From Dysosmobacter segnis (GTDB taxonomy: Bacteria; Bacillota; Clostridia; Oscillospirales; Oscillospiraceae): DNA of 64,000 bases. A program made the translations under genes and the position numbers. A model generated the notes under the pieces. That model did not search any database, had not been told where the DNA came from, and saw nothing but the letters and a program-made list of their open reading frames with translations. Location of the stretch: positions 1-64,000 of the forward strand of contig NZ_JACOQI010000003.1 of NCBI RefSeq assembly GCF_014297285.1, in the 5' to 3' direction. The number at the start of each line of letters is the position of its first letter. The first letter of the stretch is position 1. Of the stretch, positions 1 to 19,250 are shown piece by piece.

Positions 1-228
1 TCTCTGATCCCCGCCGTGGCCGGGCTGGCTGCCGCGGGATCGCTATTGGATGAGGATGCCGAGGAAAAGCGGCGGCGCATAGAGGCGAAAATCGCCGCCG
101 AAAACTTCGGTGCGGCGATTGGCTTCGCCGCAGGCGCGGCTCTGGCTGTGAAAGAAAAATTGGATGAACACGCCGCGCGGGAAGAGCAGAAAAAGCAACA
201 GCATGAGCAAACGATGGGAGGCATGTAG
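1..228 (+). CDS. Partial hypothetical protein (3' end)
   Basis: The reading frame is open from the first base of the window and stops at 226-228, so only the last 75 codons are present and the true start lies upstream. The visible part is alanine-rich, with a possible short hydrophobic stretch (GAAIGFAAGAALAV) followed by a charged Lys/Glu/Gln tail. I do not recognise the family. A terminator-like hairpin and then the TnpW/recombinase pair follow, so it is probably cargo of the same integrative element. A GTG at 16 could be an internal start, but nothing favours it. Confidence 0.5.
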   Translation, partial: SLIPAVAGLAAAGSLLDEDAEEKRRRIEAKIAAENFGAAIGFAAGAALAVKEKLDEHAAREEQKKQQHEQTMGGM

Positions 229-604: not shown

Positions 605-2098
605 ATGAATGCAATATACGCAAGACAATCTGTTGACAGAGCCGATAGTATTTCCATCGAAAGCCAGATTGAGTTCTGCCAATATGAAATGAGAGGTGAA
701 CAGTACAAGGTTTATGCCGACAGGGGTTACAGCGGGAAGAATACAGACCGCCCAGCCTTTGCGGAAATGATGAACGACATCGAAAACGGAGTGATCAGCA
801 AGGTCGTTGTTTACAAGCTGGACCGCATCAGTCGTTCCATCCTCGACTTCTCCAATATGATGGAGCAGTTCGGAACACACAAGGTCGAGTTTGTGTCCAC
901 AACAGAGAAATTCGATACATCTTCCCCCATGGGACGCGCCATGCTCAACATCTGCATTGTATTCGCGCAGCTGGAACGAGAAACCATTCAAAAGCGCGTG
1001 GCTGACGCCTACTACTCCCGCAGCCAAAAGAGCTTCTATATGGGCGGCAGAGTTCCGTATGGATTCCGGCTGATCCCGACAACCATTGATGGTGTCAAGA
1101 CGTCCATGTATGAGATCAACACGGAAGAAGCAGAGCAGGTGCGTTTGATCTATGAGCTTTATTCCAAGCCGGAATGCTCTTACGGCGACATCATCCGCTA
1201 CTTCCAGAGCCACGGCATTCTCAAAAATGGAAAGCCATGGGGACGCACGCGCCTTGCAGACGTTCTGCGAAATCCCATTTACGTTCGCTCGGATCTATCC
1301 GTCTATGAGTTCTATCGGGACCAAGGCGCCATCATGGCAAACGACCCAGGCGATTTTATTGGCACAAACGGGTGCTACTACTATAAAGGAAAGGATTCCA
1401 CCGGCCGCAAGCAGATGAATCTGGAGGGCAATTATCTGGTGCTGGCGCCGCACGAGGGGATCATTCCCGCCGACCTGTGGCTGAAATGCCGTGCCAAGTG
1501 TCTGGAAGCACAGCAGATCAAGCCGTATCAGAAGGCCAAGAACACATGGCTGGCGGGAAAGATCAAATGCGGCGTCTGCGGATACGCGCTGGTGGATAAG
1601 CACTATTCGACCACCCGCTCCAGATACCTCCTCTGCTCCAACAAAATGAACGCCAAAGCCTGTGCGGGTCCCGGAACGATCTACACGGACGAGTTTGAGC
1701 AACTCATCTATGATGAGATGCGAAAAAAGTTGGCACAATTCAGAAAACTCAGACAGTGTAAAGGAAATCGCATTAACCCTGAATTGACTGCGTTGAGCGT
1801 CCAGCTCACGCAAGTCGAAAGTGAGATTGCCGCCTTAATGGAGCGCTTGTCGGTTGCAGACGATACCATGTTCCGTTATATCAGCGGACGCATCAAGGAA
1901 CTGGACGGCAAAAAGCAAGAGCTGATGAAACGCATATCTGAGCTGAAGCTGCACAAGGAGGCCGACTACACGGAGATCAGCAATCATCTGACCATGTGGG
2001 ATGAACTGAGCTTCGACGATAAGCGACAGACGGTAGATCAGCTTATCCGTGTCATCTATGCGACCAGCGATTCCATCAAGATCGAATGGCGCATTTGA
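605..2098 (+). CDS. Large serine recombinase (integrase of mobile element)
   Basis: A 497-aa site-specific recombinase of the large serine family, which cuts and rejoins att sites to integrate or excise an element. The N-terminal resolvase domain has the YARQS motif with catalytic Ser9 and a KLDRISRS motif near residue 67. A recombinase domain occupies roughly residues 170-290. A zinc ribbon follows (Cys322, Cys325, Cys344, Cys353), then a coiled coil at about 395-450, and the usual C-terminal end near IEWRI. Length and domain order are complete. It follows the TnpW-like gene. The last 13 bases overlap a short ORF that may come from the host side of the junction. Confidence 0.93.
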   Translation: MNAIYARQSVDRADSISIESQIEFCQYEMRGEQYKVYADRGYSGKNTDRPAFAEMMNDIENGVISKVVVYKLDRISRSILDFSNMMEQFGTHKVEFVSTTEKFDTSSPMGRAMLNICIVFAQLERETIQKRVADAYYSRSQKSFYMGGRVPYGFRLIPTTIDGVKTSMYEINTEEAEQVRLIYELYSKPECSYGDIIRYFQSHGILKNGKPWGRTRLADVLRNPIYVRSDLSVYEFYRDQGAIMANDPGDFIGTNGCYYYKGKDSTGRKQMNLEGNYLVLAPHEGIIPADLWLKCRAKCLEAQQIKPYQKAKNTWLAGKIKCGVCGYALVDKHYSTTRSRYLLCSNKMNAKACAGPGTIYTDEFEQLIYDEMRKKLAQFRKLRQCKGNRINPELTALSVQLTQVESEIAALMERLSVADDTMFRYISGRIKELDGKKQELMKRISELKLHKEADYTEISNHLTMWDELSFDDKRQTVDQLIRVIYATSDSIKIEWRI

Positions 2099-10309: not shown

Positions 10310-10867
10310 TCAGCCGCGATGAAACAAATGCAGAAACCGGCCTGCCAGATGGACCACCCGCTTGCTCTGATTCATGGCAAAGGGCTTTCCCAGCGCTTTT
10401 CCGCCGATGGTAGCGCCGGAGATCAGCGCCGTGACACCCACGGAGATCAGCACGTTTTCCAGGTCCAGTCCCTTTTGCAGACGGGCCACGATCACCGCGC
10501 CGGTAGCGCCGGAGACGATGCCGCAGATATCGCCCACCACATCGTTGCAGACGCTGGATACCCGGTCCGCGTTCCGCAGGAGCTTCAGCGCCTCTTTTGC
10601 GCCCTTTTCCTTGTGGGCGGCCATGGAGTGAAAGGGGCGGGGATCCGCCGCGGTCACCGCCACGCCGATGATGTCAAACAGGATGCCAAGTCCAATGAAC
10701 AGCGCCAGGATCAGCAGCGCCAGCAGCAGACCGGCGTTCTCCAAAATGGCCTCGGAGCTCAGGCTCAGCAGCCCGGACAGGGCCACGGCCATGACAAAGG
10801 CCGTCAGCGCCCAGCGGTAGTGGTTATGTTCCTTCTTGCCGGTTTTCGGATTGGAAGGTTTTTTCAA
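10310..10867 (-). CDS. oapA: OLE-associated membrane protein OapA
   Basis: A 185-aa membrane protein with hydrophobic segments at about 20-38, 45-75, 115-130 and 140-155, split by a charged stretch (AAHKEKGAKEALKLLRNA). It is encoded directly downstream of the OLE RNA and upstream of dxs, exactly where oapA (BH2780 in Bacillus halodurans) lies. OapA is known to bind OLE RNA, recruit it to the membrane and affect Mg2+ and alcohol tolerance. Such proteins are often mislabelled as CorB-like magnesium transporters. The call rests on size, topology and strict synteny, not on a search. A GGAGG ribosome site lies upstream. Confidence 0.85.
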   Translation of the reverse strand: MKKPSNPKTGKKEHNHYRWALTAFVMAVALSGLLSLSSEAILENAGLLLALLILALFIGLGILFDIIGVAVTAADPRPFHSMAAHKEKGAKEALKLLRNADRVSSVCNDVVGDICGIVSGATGAVIVARLQKGLDLENVLISVGVTALISGATIGGKALGKPFAMNQSKRVVHLAGRFLHLFHRG

Positions 10868-10899
10868 AAAAACGCCTCCGTTATCATTCAGATATGCTA

Positions 10900-11548
10900 A
10901 GTCAGCGGCAGCAAACCAGGTAAATCTTGCGGCTTAGGTGCGGGTTTGTTTTCCCCACGGAACACCTCTCGTTGCCGATGGAGGCGGTTCCCCTTTCAGT
11001 TCCGAGGCGCGCCGTCGCCGATCGCACTACCCGATTGCCACTGAGTCCGCACTGCAATCCCTGATTCGCTTCCCATGAACAGCCTAGGTGTTTTCCACCA
11101 CAGTCTGTCCGTTTCTTTAGCCTCTTTTGCAAAACAGGTTTCAGCGGGCGATCACGATCGCCGTCCCGGCCAGGACAGCGCCGTGTTGATCCCACATTCA
11201 CCAGCTTCACGCAAGGCAGGCTACGGCTGCACACAGCGTTACGCACCCGAAGGCACGATGCACCGCATTGCAGGTTCATCATCTGCTTCGTACATGGATC
11301 CGCTTACCACAATGGGAGTACGTCCACGCACAAGAACAGGTCTCCACGGAAACAGGGTCGGGGTATCCATGCCATTGGAAATCGCCCTGAGTCCGCAAGC
11401 GCGAAAAGCGCGCTTCCTCCCAGCATCCACCCAAGACTGGGCGTCTCAAGCAGACACCAGAAGTTTCACAGGTGTGCCCTTTGGAGGCTTTTTAGGTCCT
11501 CCCTCGGAAACGGCAGATCTGACTAGAATACTGCGCCGCCGCTTAGCT
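10900..11548 (-). ncRNA. ole: OLE RNA (ornate, large, extremophilic)
   Basis: About 650 bases between ispA and oapA hold no credible gene on either strand. Size, order (xseA-xseB-ispA-RNA-oapA-dxs) and the adjacent OapA-type membrane protein match OLE RNA, a highly structured, membrane-associated noncoding RNA of some anaerobic and extremophilic Firmicutes, linked to stress and Mg2+ homeostasis. The minus-strand sequence is GC-rich with many local inverted repeats (for example GCGCGC-TTTT-CGCGCTTGCG near 11400 and GGCGATC-G-TGATCGCC near 11155). A promoter at 11555-11583 sets the 5' end near 11548. The 3' end near 10900 is a guess. Confidence 0.85.
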
Positions 11549-11554
11549 CATATC

Positions 11555-11583
11555 AGTATAGCATGGCTTGCGAAAATATGCAA
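11555..11583 (-). promoter_or_regulatory. Promoter for OLE RNA
   Basis: On the minus strand TTGCAT (11583-11578), a 17-bp spacer and TATACT (11560-11555). It lies after the ispA terminator and just before the structured region, so the RNA can be made independently of the upstream operon. Confidence 0.7.
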
Positions 11584-11732
11584 CAGCTTCCGTATATATA
11601 CAGAGCGGCTGACGGTGTGCTTCATAGACCCGACGAGCGATTTCTGGCGGCATCTTAACAGCTTTCCGGGTTTCGGTCCGTTCTTGCTTCCTTTTGCGGA
11701 CCTTCGCTGTATGCGTGCCTGCGGATTTCTGC

Positions 11733-14102: not shown

Positions 14103-15197
14103 TTACTCCTTATCCAGCCAGGGGCGGAGCCGGGCCGATACGGCTTCCTCCGCCCACCGGGAAAACGCTTTGACACGGAACAAGCGGAATAAGCCTGCCC
14201 GCAGGACGTCCGCCAGAGAGCAGACGAGGTAGATGGCAAACGCGCCGCCCAGAACGCCCGATGCCAGTAGAATCGGTGGCTTGTCCGCCAGAAACGCAAA
14301 CCGGCCTGCCAGCCAGTGCTCCCAGATCAGCGGATGGGCGTGGATCAGGTACACGCTGAAGGCCAGCGGCGAGACGCTTTCGATAAAACGCCCAAAACGG
14401 GGGCCGATATTCAGCTCCGCGAAGCACAGTACCAGCGCCACCGCCGCCAGCAGAACGGTGGGCGAGGTGTACGCTGTCAGCAGCACCTTGTCGCAGAGGT
14501 GTCCCGTCCGGGCCATCCACAGCCGGTCCCCTGCCAGACGCACCAGCCACGTTGCCAGTACGCAGCCTGCATAAATCGCCCCCCGGCTGGCGGGACGGCG
14601 GGACGTCTGCCTCCCGCACAGCCGCAGGACGCCGCCCAGCAGGTAGAGACAGGACAGCCACAGGACGCTGTAACCGTTGTCCGTCAGGAAGACGTCCTTT
14701 TGCCGCAGGGTGGGCAGAACGGAAAACACCAGCACGATGGACAGCGCCAGCAGCCGCAGCTGTCCCTTGGAAAGGCGGTTCAGCAGCAGATTGAAAAACG
14801 GGATGAACAGGCACATACCGAAGTAGGCCGTCACATACCAGTACTGCCGGAACAGCACCGGGAAAAAGGCCCGCAGCACCCGGTCACCGTTGACGCTGCC
14901 GGGCATCAGACATGCAAATACCGCCGTGATGCCCAGCGTGTAGAACGCCACCCGCAGCCACAGGGCCAGCGCACCGCTGTACCGGAAGCGCCGCTGAACG
15001 CCTACATATCCGGAGATCAGTCCGTAACAGTTGACGGCGCAGTAGGCGGCAGTCTCCAGCAGCCGTGCGGTCCCCTGCCCCGCAGACAGGGGCGCCGCGG
15101 CAGCCAGAACGCCGCCCTTATTCAGAATATGGAGAATGACCACCATCCACATGGCGGTCATCCGCAGCAGGTCGATCCCCCGGTTGCGCTGTTCCAT
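14103..15197 (-). CDS. Membrane acyltransferase (acyltransferase 3 family)
   Basis: A 364-aa polytopic protein of the acyltransferase 3 family (OatA/WecH/NodX type), which moves acetyl or similar acyl groups to extracytoplasmic sugars or peptidoglycan. The N-terminus (RNRGIDLLRMTAMWMVVILH) contains the family's first-helix Arg and His, followed by about ten membrane spans. The start at 15197 is favoured by AAGGAGA 6 bp upstream over ATG 15245. It lies between nusB and xseA, where folD is often found; this placement is unusual. The acceptor is unknown. Confidence 0.85.
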   Translation of the reverse strand: MEQRNRGIDLLRMTAMWMVVILHILNKGGVLAAAAPLSAGQGTARLLETAAYCAVNCYGLISGYVGVQRRFRYSGALALWLRVAFYTLGITAVFACLMPGSVNGDRVLRAFFPVLFRQYWYVTAYFGMCLFIPFFNLLLNRLSKGQLRLLALSIVLVFSVLPTLRQKDVFLTDNGYSVLWLSCLYLLGGVLRLCGRQTSRRPASRGAIYAGCVLATWLVRLAGDRLWMARTGHLCDKVLLTAYTSPTVLLAAVALVLCFAELNIGPRFGRFIESVSPLAFSVYLIHAHPLIWEHWLAGRFAFLADKPPILLASGVLGGAFAIYLVCSLADVLRAGLFRLFRVKAFSRWAEEAVSARLRPWLDKE

Positions 15198-15270
15198 GGC
15201 GTCTCCTTGTGTAAAAAAGCAGAACGGAGGCGGTCTGTGCCGCATCCGCTCTGCCGGTTTGTTGAGATGC

Positions 15271-16797: not shown

Positions 16798-17310
16798 TCA
16801 CTGACACTTTGCCACGGTGACGCGGTCGCTGGACAGTCCGGTCAAGGCGGACACCGCCTCGGTGACTGCCAGCTTCACGTCGGCCCGGTCGCCCCCCTGA
16901 CATACCACCAGCGCCCCCCGATAGGTGGGATACGCCGTCCGGGTCACAACGGTCTCCTCCCGGTCCCCGCCGTCCAGCAGGACCGGCTCCGAGGTTCGGG
17001 AATAGTCCTCCGGTGCCGTCGCGCTGCCGCTGTACCGCAGCTCCGTATTCTGGGCCAGCTGCCGTTCTCCATCGGTATCCACCGTCAGCAGCACCCGCAC
17101 GGTCCCTACGCCCTGGATCTGCCCCAAAATTTCCTCCAAGTCCTTTCGCAGCGTCTCCGCGGCTGTATAGGCCGGTGGCGCTTCGCTCTGACCAGTCTGT
17201 GCCGTGTGCCCGCTCCCACCGGGCCATAACAGCAGCCCAGCGCCGATCAGCAAGATCAGTGCCGCGTATTTGTATCGGTCCCATAGCTTCCGCACTCCTT
17301 CAGTTTTCAT
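16798..17310 (-). CDS. spoIIIAG: Stage III sporulation protein AG
   Basis: A 170-aa mother-cell protein that builds the large ring of the feeding-tube channel. It has one N-terminal membrane span (YAALILLIGAGLLLWP), a low-complexity segment, then a ring domain with VRVLLTVDTDGERQLAQNTE and the typical TEAVSALTGLSSDRVTVAKC end. It overlaps spoIIIAF by 11 bp. Confidence 0.94.
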   Translation of the reverse strand: MKTEGVRKLWDRYKYAALILLIGAGLLLWPGGSGHTAQTGQSEAPPAYTAAETLRKDLEEILGQIQGVGTVRVLLTVDTDGERQLAQNTELRYSGSATAPEDYSRTSEPVLLDGGDREETVVTRTAYPTYRGALVVCQGGDRADVKLAVTEAVSALTGLSSDRVTVAKCQ

Positions 17311-17773
17311 TCCACACCTGTCTTTCCGCCGGGACGCCCAGCTCCGTTTCCAGCCACCGGGACAGCACTTCGGACCTCGGCCCCGTCAGTTCCACAGAAA
17401 CGGGGACGGGAACGCCGCTGCCGTCCGGCTCCACGGTGACTTGCACCCGGAGCGTCAGGCCCATATCAGCCGCCTTGTCCCATATATATGATTCCAGTTC
17501 GGCTTCTATGAGTCCCACCAGCTCTTTCTGCCCCTCTTGCTCCAATTCCGCCTGCCGCCGCTCCACCGTCTGCCGGTAGGCGGACAGATCCAGCGAGACG
17601 GCAGACAGGTCCACATTCCCAAGGGGCCGCAAAAGCACAGCCAGCAGGAGCAGTCCCCCCACAAAGGAGGTGATCTCCCGGAGACTGCCCTTGGGCGTCA
17701 GCATTTGTATCACGGATAGCAGCAGCGTCACGGACACCACCGCCGTCAGCCATGCCCGGGCCGCCGCCATCAT
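17300..17773 (-). CDS. spoIIIAF: Stage III sporulation protein AF
   Basis: A 157-aa membrane protein of the SpoIIIA-SpoIIQ channel, with two N-terminal spans (AVVSVTLLLSVIQMLTP, then FVGGLLLLAVLLRPLG) and a soluble alpha/beta domain. The start MMAAARAW at 17773 overlaps the spoIIIAE stop (ATGA), which indicates coupling. The longer open frame upstream is a shadow of spoIIIAE. Confidence 0.92.
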   Translation of the reverse strand: MMAAARAWLTAVVSVTLLLSVIQMLTPKGSLREITSFVGGLLLLAVLLRPLGNVDLSAVSLDLSAYRQTVERRQAELEQEGQKELVGLIEAELESYIWDKAADMGLTLRVQVTVEPDGSGVPVPVSVELTGPRSEVLSRWLETELGVPAERQVWNEN

Positions 17774-18855
17774 GATGTCACCACAGCTGCGGAGGCCAGA
17801 ATGGACACCAGCAGTACCAGCGCGCAGCTTCCCACCATGCCCAGGATCAGACCGAAGGCGCCGCCAAGGCCGCCGATCAGTCCGCACAGCTCCGTATCTC
17901 CGATGACGGAGGCCAAAAAAGCCGTCAGCTTGTAGAGAAGGTACTGGATCCCCAGCTGCAAAAAGGGATAGGCACACAGGGCCAGCACCCCCAGCAGGCC
18001 AAACACGCCGATAGCCCCCTTCAAAAGCCCCGCCCCGGCCAGCACGGTTTCCGATGCCTCTGCGATGATGCCCCCCACCACGGGGATCATGCCGGAAATG
18101 GCGGTTTTCGTCACCCGCACTCTGGCGCTGTCCACCGTTCCAGCGAAAATGCCGCCTACAGTGAGGTAGAGGGTAAAGGCCAGCAGTGCGGCGGTCAGCA
18201 GCTTGGTGCAGACGGTTTTCAGCAGCTCCGCCACCGCCGTCAGCCGCTTGTCCGCAAGGCAGCAGCCAGCCGCCAGCGCCCCGGCGTAGAGATAGACCAT
18301 GGGCATCAGCAGTCCGTGAATCAGCCCCAGCAGCAGGTCCGCGAAAAACACCGTGGCGATCTGCCGCAGTGTCGCGCCCACGGCCCCGCCGGAGATGGCG
18401 GAAACGGCGGCCAGCGTGGGAAGGAGCGCCTTGGAAAAGGTGTTCATCTGCTCCATGACCGCAGTCCCCGCCCCCATCAGACTGTCCAGACTGCCTGCCG
18501 TCAGAGCAGTGACGGCCAGCCCGCCCGCCATAGGCAGAAACCGGCTCTCGTCTCCCACACCCTTTTGAAAACCGCTGACCAATCCGCATAGCACCGCCAC
18601 CAGCAGCACTGATACCGCCCCACGGGTCTGACGCCGCAAAACGGTGTTCACGTCTTTTCGGAGGTGGTTCCAGATGGCGCAAAGCCCCTCCGGAAAGCTG
18701 TTCACGTCCCAGTGGTCTACATCCTTCAAAAGCTGACCGGCCTCTCGTGGCAGCGCCCGTTCCACCTCCGGCGGCAGCTCCGCGCCCCGGACCGGGAGCG
18801 TCAGCAACAGGAGGGCCAGTCCCAAAAAGCAGCAGATTTTCAAGCGTTTCATCAT
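17770..18855 (-). CDS. spoIIIAE: Stage III sporulation protein AE
   Basis: A 361-aa polytopic membrane protein of the sporulation channel. It has an N-terminal signal-like segment (MMKRLKICCFLGLALLLLT), then about seven spans. The segment MEQMNTFSKALLPTLAAVSA and the region near SARVRVTKTAISGMIPVVGG are typical of the family. The start at 18855 overlaps the spoIIIAD stop; upstream in-frame codons are shadow. Confidence 0.94.
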   Translation of the reverse strand: MMKRLKICCFLGLALLLLTLPVRGAELPPEVERALPREAGQLLKDVDHWDVNSFPEGLCAIWNHLRKDVNTVLRRQTRGAVSVLLVAVLCGLVSGFQKGVGDESRFLPMAGGLAVTALTAGSLDSLMGAGTAVMEQMNTFSKALLPTLAAVSAISGGAVGATLRQIATVFFADLLLGLIHGLLMPMVYLYAGALAAGCCLADKRLTAVAELLKTVCTKLLTAALLAFTLYLTVGGIFAGTVDSARVRVTKTAISGMIPVVGGIIAEASETVLAGAGLLKGAIGVFGLLGVLALCAYPFLQLGIQYLLYKLTAFLASVIGDTELCGLIGGLGGAFGLILGMVGSCALVLLVSILASAAVVTS

Positions 18856-19250
18856 CTCAGCTCCGTTATCAGTTCCAGCACCGCCCGCAGCAGGGGCAGC
18901 GCCGTCAAAAGGGCACAGACCGTCCCGGCAAATTCCAGTGCGGCGGCCAGCGCGCTTTCCCCGGCATCCCGGCACAGCCCGCCGCCCACTTTCACCACAA
19001 GGGCGATGCCCACCGTCTTATAGAGGGGCGTCAGCAGCGTCCGGGAGACACCGCTCTGCTCTGCCAGCCGTTCCAGAAACCGCAGTAATTCCGTCAGTGG
19101 CTCCGCTAAGGCCAGCAAAACCGCCGCTGCCGCTGCCAATGCCAGCAAAAGCGTGATCTCCGGGTTGCTCCGGCGGAGGACAAGTCCCAGCAGGGCCGCG
19201 ATCACGCAGAGCGCCGCCGCCTGGGTCACCAGCGCCATCTCAGAGATCAA
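18852..19250 (-). CDS. spoIIIAD: Stage III sporulation protein AD
   Basis: A 132-aa small membrane protein with four hydrophobic segments (one is ALCVIAALLGLVLRRSNPE), related to SpoIIIAC. It forms part of the export-like base of the SpoIIIA machine. It overlaps spoIIIAC and spoIIIAE by a few bases each. The start could be 19250 or the Met codon four residues later. Confidence 0.93.
   Translation of the reverse strand: MISEMALVTQAAALCVIAALLGLVLRRSNPEITLLLALAAAAAVLLALAEPLTELLRFLERLAEQSGVSRTLLTPLYKTVGIALVVKVGGGLCRDAGESALAAALEFAGTVCALLTALPLLRAVLELITELR

Follow-up and report, generated by a model that had tools for sequence, protein, structure and literature searches.

An OLE RNA with a hairpin in place of the J5/6 strand in an Oscillospiraceae genome and its relatives

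The DNA analysed here (the window, a stretch of 64,000 nucleotides) very probably encodes an OLE RNA, which serves as scaffold for a membrane ribonucleoprotein that also contains OapA, the product of the next gene. Judged from its sequence, the RNA is a structural variant of this known class, in which a hairpin stands where other members carry the J5/6 strand UUAAG. To our knowledge, OLE is among the largest bacterial RNAs, and we know of no established biochemical function for it. The hairpin was shared by many relatives in the same family, and genomes with the hairpin often had no detectable OapC, a link that is suggestive and phylogenetically thin.

The whole window was scanned on both strands against Rfam. 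The single match above any gathering score was OLE (RF01071) at 11555..10889 (-), covering model positions 1-616 of 616 with 420.8 bits and an E value of 3.4e-120 (gathering cut-off, 50 bits). An OLE RNA had been proposed in the initial annotation from the letters alone, and the covariance-model search gave it significant, full-length support. The span noted then, 10900-11548, lacks the first 7 nt and the last 11 nt of the match and approximates the predicted transcript, which starts at about 11548 and has P1 closing at 10896. The assignment is drawn from family membership, gene order, promoter-like sequence, helices P1 and P3, dimer-contact loops and the J5/6 hairpin, all of them sequence evidence. 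Coordinates are collected in Table 1.

Table 1. Features of the OLE locus in the window (OLE position p corresponds to window coordinate 11556 - p).
Feature	Coordinates	Strand	Remarks
xseA	14100-12883	(-)	NCBIfam/Pfam; upstream of OLE
xseB	12893-12657	(-)	NCBIfam/Pfam; upstream of OLE
ispA-type prenyl diphosphate synthase	12676-11777	(-)	NCBIfam/Pfam; upstream of OLE
Upstream element TATACNGAATATNTTGTATA	11577..11596	(-)	3 mismatches in the window; overlaps -35
Predicted sigma-A promoter	11555..11583	(-)	-35 TTGCAT 11583-11578; -10 TATACT 11560-11555
OLE RNA	10889..11555	(-)	full length by Rfam RF01071
P1 5' strand	11535..11547	(-)	OLE 9-21; terminal helix
P3 5' strand	11507..11513	(-)	OLE 43-49
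J4a/5	11463..11478	(-)	OLE 78-93; bulged strand in either k-turn
Extra J5/6 hairpin	11397..11416	(-)	OLE 140-159; in place of common-type UUAAG
J6/7 strand	11341..11347	(-)	OLE 209-215; J4a/5 partner in k-turn 1b
P3 3' strand	11109..11115	(-)	OLE 441-447
P1 3' strand	10896..10909	(-)	OLE 647-660
oapA	10310..10867	(-)	185 aa; TTG start
dxs	10274-8415	(-)	NCBIfam/Pfam; downstream of OLE
tlyA	8425-7604	(-)	NCBIfam/Pfam; downstream of OLE
nadK	7604-6726	(-)	NCBIfam/Pfam; downstream of OLE
argR	6729-6280	(-)	NCBIfam/Pfam; downstream of OLE
recN	6240-4552	(-)	NCBIfam/Pfam; downstream of OLE

NCBIfam and Pfam matches gave the order xseA-xseB-ispA-ole-oapA-dxs-tlyA-nadK-argR-recN with every gene on the minus strand, so the OLE-type gene order claimed at the outset was borne out. 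The gene between nusB and xseA (14103-15245, minus strand) encodes an acyltransferase-family protein of 380 aa (PF01757, 73.5 bits), for which NCBIfam gave no match.

Relatives were collected through oapA, and 80 of the 529 loci found were listed. By name they were Oscillospiraceae, Oscillibacter, Dysosmobacter and similar taxa, unplaced Clostridia, Clostridiales or Eubacteriales, and in one case Ruminococcaceae. In the OapA tree (fragment G120 left out), the window formed a pair with O. valericigenes An860 (genome G003), with support of 100/91. Both the OapA relatives and the tree pointed to an Oscillibacter-like member of Oscillospiraceae, in keeping with the Oscillospirales host first suggested. 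Among the matches listed, OapA identity to the window was at most 79% (L018), and the nearest OLE was that of L014, with 80% identity over aligned columns including flanks. In a large protein set, the nearest match to the window OapA was 98% identical and represented 813 member sequences, so the organism is probably common in metagenomes. SpoIIIAG- and SpoIIIAE-like genes at 16798-18975 (-), scoring under the curated cut-offs, were in line with the spore-former presumed in the initial annotation.

By nhmmer, OLE was present in 79 of the 80 listed loci, and contig ends truncated six of these copies. The near set of 74 RNAs comprised the window and 73 loci; the fragments L027, L074, L077, L064, L010 and L024 were left out, as was L052, whose OLE lay outside the locus DNA. 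OLE was also found in 56 of 200 genomes sampled from the window's family and in 101 of 245 genomes sampled across the class. These frequencies agree with the published occurrence of OLE in 2,822 Bacillota species, among them members of gut clades (PMC11332333). A gut OLE is already known and not new in itself. Because OLE of uncultured gut bacteria has been published (PMC11332333), a further gut copy adds little, and the idea that this one would widen the comparison set was overstated. For alignment, the near set was joined by 55 family genomes (G198, its RNA cut by a contig end, was left out) and the 30 best-scoring of the 101 class matches, giving 159 rows. Five RNAs occurred in both the near and family sets (L002, L037, L031, L059 and L065).

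That the OLE interval codes for protein has a negligible probability. Mechanical ORFs do exist, of 126 aa on the RNA strand (without an NCBIfam match) and as part of a 355-aa ORF on the antisense strand. However, the homologous frames were open in 3 (sense) and 2 (antisense) of the 74 aligned sequences, the window among them, and the RNA covaried strongly. Since the frames were not conserved, both ORFs were rejected as genes, and by these tests the interval is non-coding. Of the earlier statement that there is no gene on either strand, the non-coding part stands, and it needs the addition that ORFs occur on both strands.

RNAalifold on the 74 RNAs recovered P1, P2 and P3, three helices that are absent from the Rfam pairing. 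P1 had a consensus of 13 bp with 7 covarying pairs. P3 kept 7/7 pairs in 69 of the 74 RNAs, with 18 distinct strand pairs, and its 5' side had one length in all 74. P1-P3 are named in published OLE models (PMC12265935); P1 and P3 were rejected as novel helices, as they are lacking just from the Rfam pairing. P3 has been proposed as a membrane-crossing helix (PMC12265935), and its conservation would be consistent with that proposal, although it is no test of it. The window also kept the P4 loop CUAAAAA, the P5.1 loop GCCCA, the P6.1 loop AUGGCAU and the P9 GGCC, the last being present in 152 of the 159 rows; the equation of Rfam loops with published loops was our own, and dimer contacts were judged by sequence.

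A promoter-like sequence precedes the RNA. In the window, the predicted boxes are separated by a 17-nt spacer ending in an extended TGC, and the predicted start lies near 11548. The pattern TTGNNN-16..18-TANNNT, ending 18-34 nt upstream of a conserved GCAGTAT anchor, was found in 70 of the 71 loci tested; letter-shuffled controls gave a mean of 2.0 and a maximum of 7 in 200 rounds. The sole miss, L062, has the same boxes nearer the anchor. The other three of the 74 (L014, L063 and L047) were unscored, the anchor being absent from the searched stretch. In 42 loci of the window's clade, chosen by eye, the -10 consensus was TGnTATACT and an A/T-rich element, ATATACnGAATATnTTGTATATTTAT, spanned the -35 box. 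In H. halodurans, ole has its own promoter (PMC9723947); a conserved sigma-A-type promoter directly ahead of OLE is an addition of the present analysis. As a sequence feature, its conservation would fit a free, strongly expressed OLE RNA.

The upstream element TATACNGAATATNTTGTATA either belongs to a strong promoter or acts as a dedicated operator. Allowing at most 2 mismatches, it occurred 24 times, in 22 of the 24 genomes searched; 20 of these matches were at ole and 4 elsewhere (G006:C30, G008:C15, G010:C1:1374428 and G012:C7), and the reversed pattern gave 0 matches in the same 24 genomes. As the element was almost confined to ole (20/24 matches), no regulon was found and that candidate was rejected. 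The copy at G012:C7 (L140 at about 1501-1520, minus strand), which is exact, has a transposase-like ORF nearby and lacks a -10 box at the usual distance. A resemblance of the upstream element to NrdR and ArgR boxes was dropped after inspection by eye.

Could the interval be a long cis-acting leader of oapA (a riboswitch or attenuator) instead of a free RNA? The oapA start codon comes 21 nt after the OLE match with no terminator seen between them by eye, and the gap between OLE and oapA was at most 150 nt in 47 of the 56 genomes. However, 2,520 nt separate ole from oapA in G046 and about 5.1 kb in G001 (the genome of L052), and both RNAs match the model over its full length. The published OLE is moreover an abundant free RNA (PMC9723947). 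With the conserved promoter, these two natural separations argue against a leader, which we regard as very unlikely, and for a free RNA. Two large genes lie between ole and oapA in G001 (L105/L052) and one in G046 (L106); they encode 683, 879 and 786 aa. The G046 gene and one of the G001 genes had weak solute-binding matches (PF01547, 26.4 and 22.6 bits; cut-off, 26), and the other G001 gene had no domain match. The position that ispA takes upstream of ole in the window is occupied in G046 by a gene for an M18 aminopeptidase (PF02127). A U run just 3' of P1, a possible terminator or processing signal, was seen in some relatives (for example L043, L051 and L055) and was absent in the window.

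The J5/6 hairpin distinguishes the OLE RNA of the window from the common type. Types were assigned by J5/6 length, which places L183 (GUAAGG) with the UUAAG type. The hairpin was present in 74/74 near RNAs, in 38 of the 55 family genomes (the other 17 had UUAAG) and in 0/30 of the best-scoring of the 101 class matches, a set that leans to the common type because it was ranked by score to the Rfam consensus. In total, 112 rows had the hairpin and 47 the common J5/6 (UUAAG, or GUAAG in L183), which corresponds to 107 and 47 of 154 distinct RNAs.

Each of the 112 hairpin segments folded alone with at least 5 bp. Pairing between arms of the same sequence averaged 6.05 of 7. With arms dealt between sequences it averaged 5.24 (sd 0.06), and 0 of 1000 deals reached the observed value; 14 of the 112 had just 2 of 7 pairs in the fixed register. 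By column, hairpin length ranged from 19 to 117 nt in the near set, as if J5/6 were a tolerant insertion site. The longest near example, about 117 nt, was in L050, and the region reached 181 nt in the typed set, where F_L235 and F_L238 were long too.

J5/6 is one of two proposed partners of J4a/5. In k-turn 1a, which is induced by OapC, J4a/5 is joined with J5/6 (Lyon et al.), and in k-turn 1b, seen by cryo-EM, with J6/7 (PMC12286853). Wencker et al. reported covariation for both k-turns and found that bS21 favours 1a (PMC12054373). In our alignment, J4a/5 residues C85, U88, G89, A90 and A91 were invariant in 159/159 rows. So were J6/7 positions 209 and 211-214; position 215 was A in 155/159 rows and 210 was U or C. 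In the hairpin type, J4a/5 positions 84, 86 and 87 were relaxed and 92-93 were changed. The P6 base was paired in 0.845 of cells, versus 0.570 in the UUAAG type. The UUAAG(G) J5/6 strand for k-turn 1a was absent in the window and in all 112 hairpin-type rows. The k-turn 1b motif, J4a/5 C-NNN-GA opposite J6/7 GA-G(A), was present, and the next pair, 84-215, was not maintained in the hairpin type.

As read from the alignment, the hairpin type has lost the strand for k-turn 1a and keeps that for 1b almost unchanged, bar pair 84-215. We are much less sure of what follows for the RNA's behaviour. With a hairpin in place of the J5/6 strand and a better-paired P6 base, the OapC/bS21-induced switch to k-turn 1a may be lost or altered, and k-turn 1b would remain. 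A hairpin within a k-turn is a k-junction, and could still permit a form of k-turn 1a.

The changes in J4a/5 could instead concern OapA. Positions 83-88 may be an OapA-binding palindrome, AUCGAU, near P4a, in which case the hairpin type would have altered its contact with OapA and not with OapC. AUCGAU was found in 43 of the 47 UUAAG-type rows versus 26 of the 112 hairpin-type rows (24 of the 107 distinct RNAs) and was absent in the window, and OapA sites are palindromes in or near P2 and P4a (PMC12265935). However, the exact palindrome is our own guess, and OapA was found in every one of the 56 OLE genomes. We consider an altered OapA contact unlikely.

OapC, OapB and bS21 were compared between the two types in the 200 family genomes, with queries taken from hairpin-type genomes (OapC, or YbxF, from G012 and OapB from G010). 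OapC was present in 16/17 UUAAG-type versus 12/38 hairpin-type genomes (p 1.8e-5). OapB (12/17 and 31/38) and bS21 (16/17 and 33/38) showed no such split. PF01248 alone was rejected as a score for OapC, as it matched YlxQ too: its match was inspected in 10 of the 26 OapC-negative hairpin-type genomes, and all 10 were in the YlxQ setting, flanked by infB and, as judged by eye, a YlxR-like ORF, with the infB motif in 10/10 and the nusA motif in 6/10. In G003, G010, G012 and G140, rpsL is immediately preceded by the OapC gene; in G113, rpoC runs directly into rpsL.

The window's nearest hairpin-type neighbours in the tree (G003, G012 and G010) had OapB, OapC and bS21, indicating that the hairpin by itself is no sign of OapC loss. 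On the OapA tree, the OLE types need just 5 changes and OapC 7. An independent-pairs test had 3 supported pairs, of which 1.9 went the same way, 0.1 the opposite way and 1.0 showed no difference (p 0.25-1). Three pairs are too few for this test to reach significance, and with so few type changes a single event may account for most of the difference in OapC. The link between the hairpin type and OapC loss is a lead and not proof, because independent events are few and the window's nearest relatives keep OapC.

The hairpin may thus be a neutral expansion, with an unrelated loss of OapC in a clade that merely shares both, and we give this close to an even chance. Besides the few type changes and the OapC of the three near relatives, the highly variable hairpin length speaks for it, as does the presence of OapC in 63/144 OLE-negative genomes. 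Against it, OapC was no more frequent in hairpin-type than in OLE-negative genomes (12/38 versus 63/144, p 0.20), whereas its 16/17 in the UUAAG type differed from the OLE-negative genomes (p 5e-5); J4a/5 positions 84, 86 and 87 relax along with the loss of UUAAG; and neither bS21 nor OapB was divided between the types. In published data, OapB occurs in about 60% and OapC in about 45% of OLE organisms (PMC11332333), so a missing OapC is in itself not new. A link between J5/6 and OapC was absent from the available parts of the text of PMC11332333, PMC12265935, PMC9723947, PMC12054373, PMC12286853 and PMC10898510, whose figures and supplements may draw the hairpin.

OapA itself accompanied OLE throughout. 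It was present in 56/56 OLE-positive genomes of the 200-genome family sample, and the 58 genomes with OapA matches were these 56, G199, where the contig ends ahead of the RNA position, and G068, where the match was weak (1.9e-4). The window OapA has the DxxxD motif as DVVGD at residues 109-113. Its match to CNNM (PF01595) was 26.3 bits, under the Pfam cut-off of 28.4, and this weak match is consistent with OapA and MpfA being related, as published (PMC11332333). The motif and the PF01595 match are features it shares with OapA/MpfA membrane proteins, but MpfA has CBS and CorC_HlyC domains in addition, whereas no further Pfam domain was found in the 185-aa window protein.

CorC_HlyC (PF03471), which marks MpfA-type proteins, was found in 11/56 OLE-positive versus 133/144 OLE-negative family genomes (Fisher p 7e-24, kinship uncorrected). 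OLE and MpfA-type transporters thus tend toward mutual exclusion within one family. Their anticorrelation has been published phylum-wide (PMC11332333), and the present result shows it at a finer scale, at which phylogenetic confounding is lowered and still present. MpfA content was alike in the two OLE types (4/17 UUAAG versus 7/38 hairpin). From published work, OLE RNA may fill the place taken by MpfA-type transporters in relatives that lack OLE. As published studies of Halalkalibacterium halodurans and the structures solved by cryo-EM suggest, the RNA would dimerise, bind OapA at the membrane and adjust metal-ion and stress physiology.

Compared with full-length OLE (RF01071, as in H. halodurans and C. 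acetobutylicum), the window RNA shares the whole model, the gene cluster with oapA directly 3', the dimer-contact loop sequences and the k-turn 1b residues. It differs in a covarying hairpin in place of the J5/6 UUAAG, an extended P6 base and the absence of AUCGAU from J4a/5. OLE variants 1 and 2 have been described as commonest in the TANB77 and RF39 clades, which are mostly without OapB and OapC (PMC11332333). In those variants, P7-P9 are shortened, often with loss of the OapB site, or P7 and P8 are missing. No shortening or loss of P7, P8 or P9 was found in the window OLE, where P7-P9 are present and the altered part is J5/6. Like variants 1 and 2, it is a lineage-specific structural variant.

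A third OLE architecture may exist in Oscillospiraceae: a protein-independent hairpin would have taken the place of the J5/6 switch strand, made these lineages independent of OapC and fixed the k-turn 1b conformer. We put this forward tentatively, as a possibility of rather less than even weight. If true, switchable and locked OLE RNAs would exist side by side in one family, and they would be a natural test of what the change of OLE shape does. Published positions on the OLE k-turn differ, favouring 1a, 1b or both (PMC12286853, PMC12054373). In a family where a hairpin has displaced one of the two strands, the other hardly varies and OapC is often missing, the question of 1a versus 1b becomes a direct comparison between relatives, and the altered version of OLE may help show which of the two proposed RNA shapes matters.
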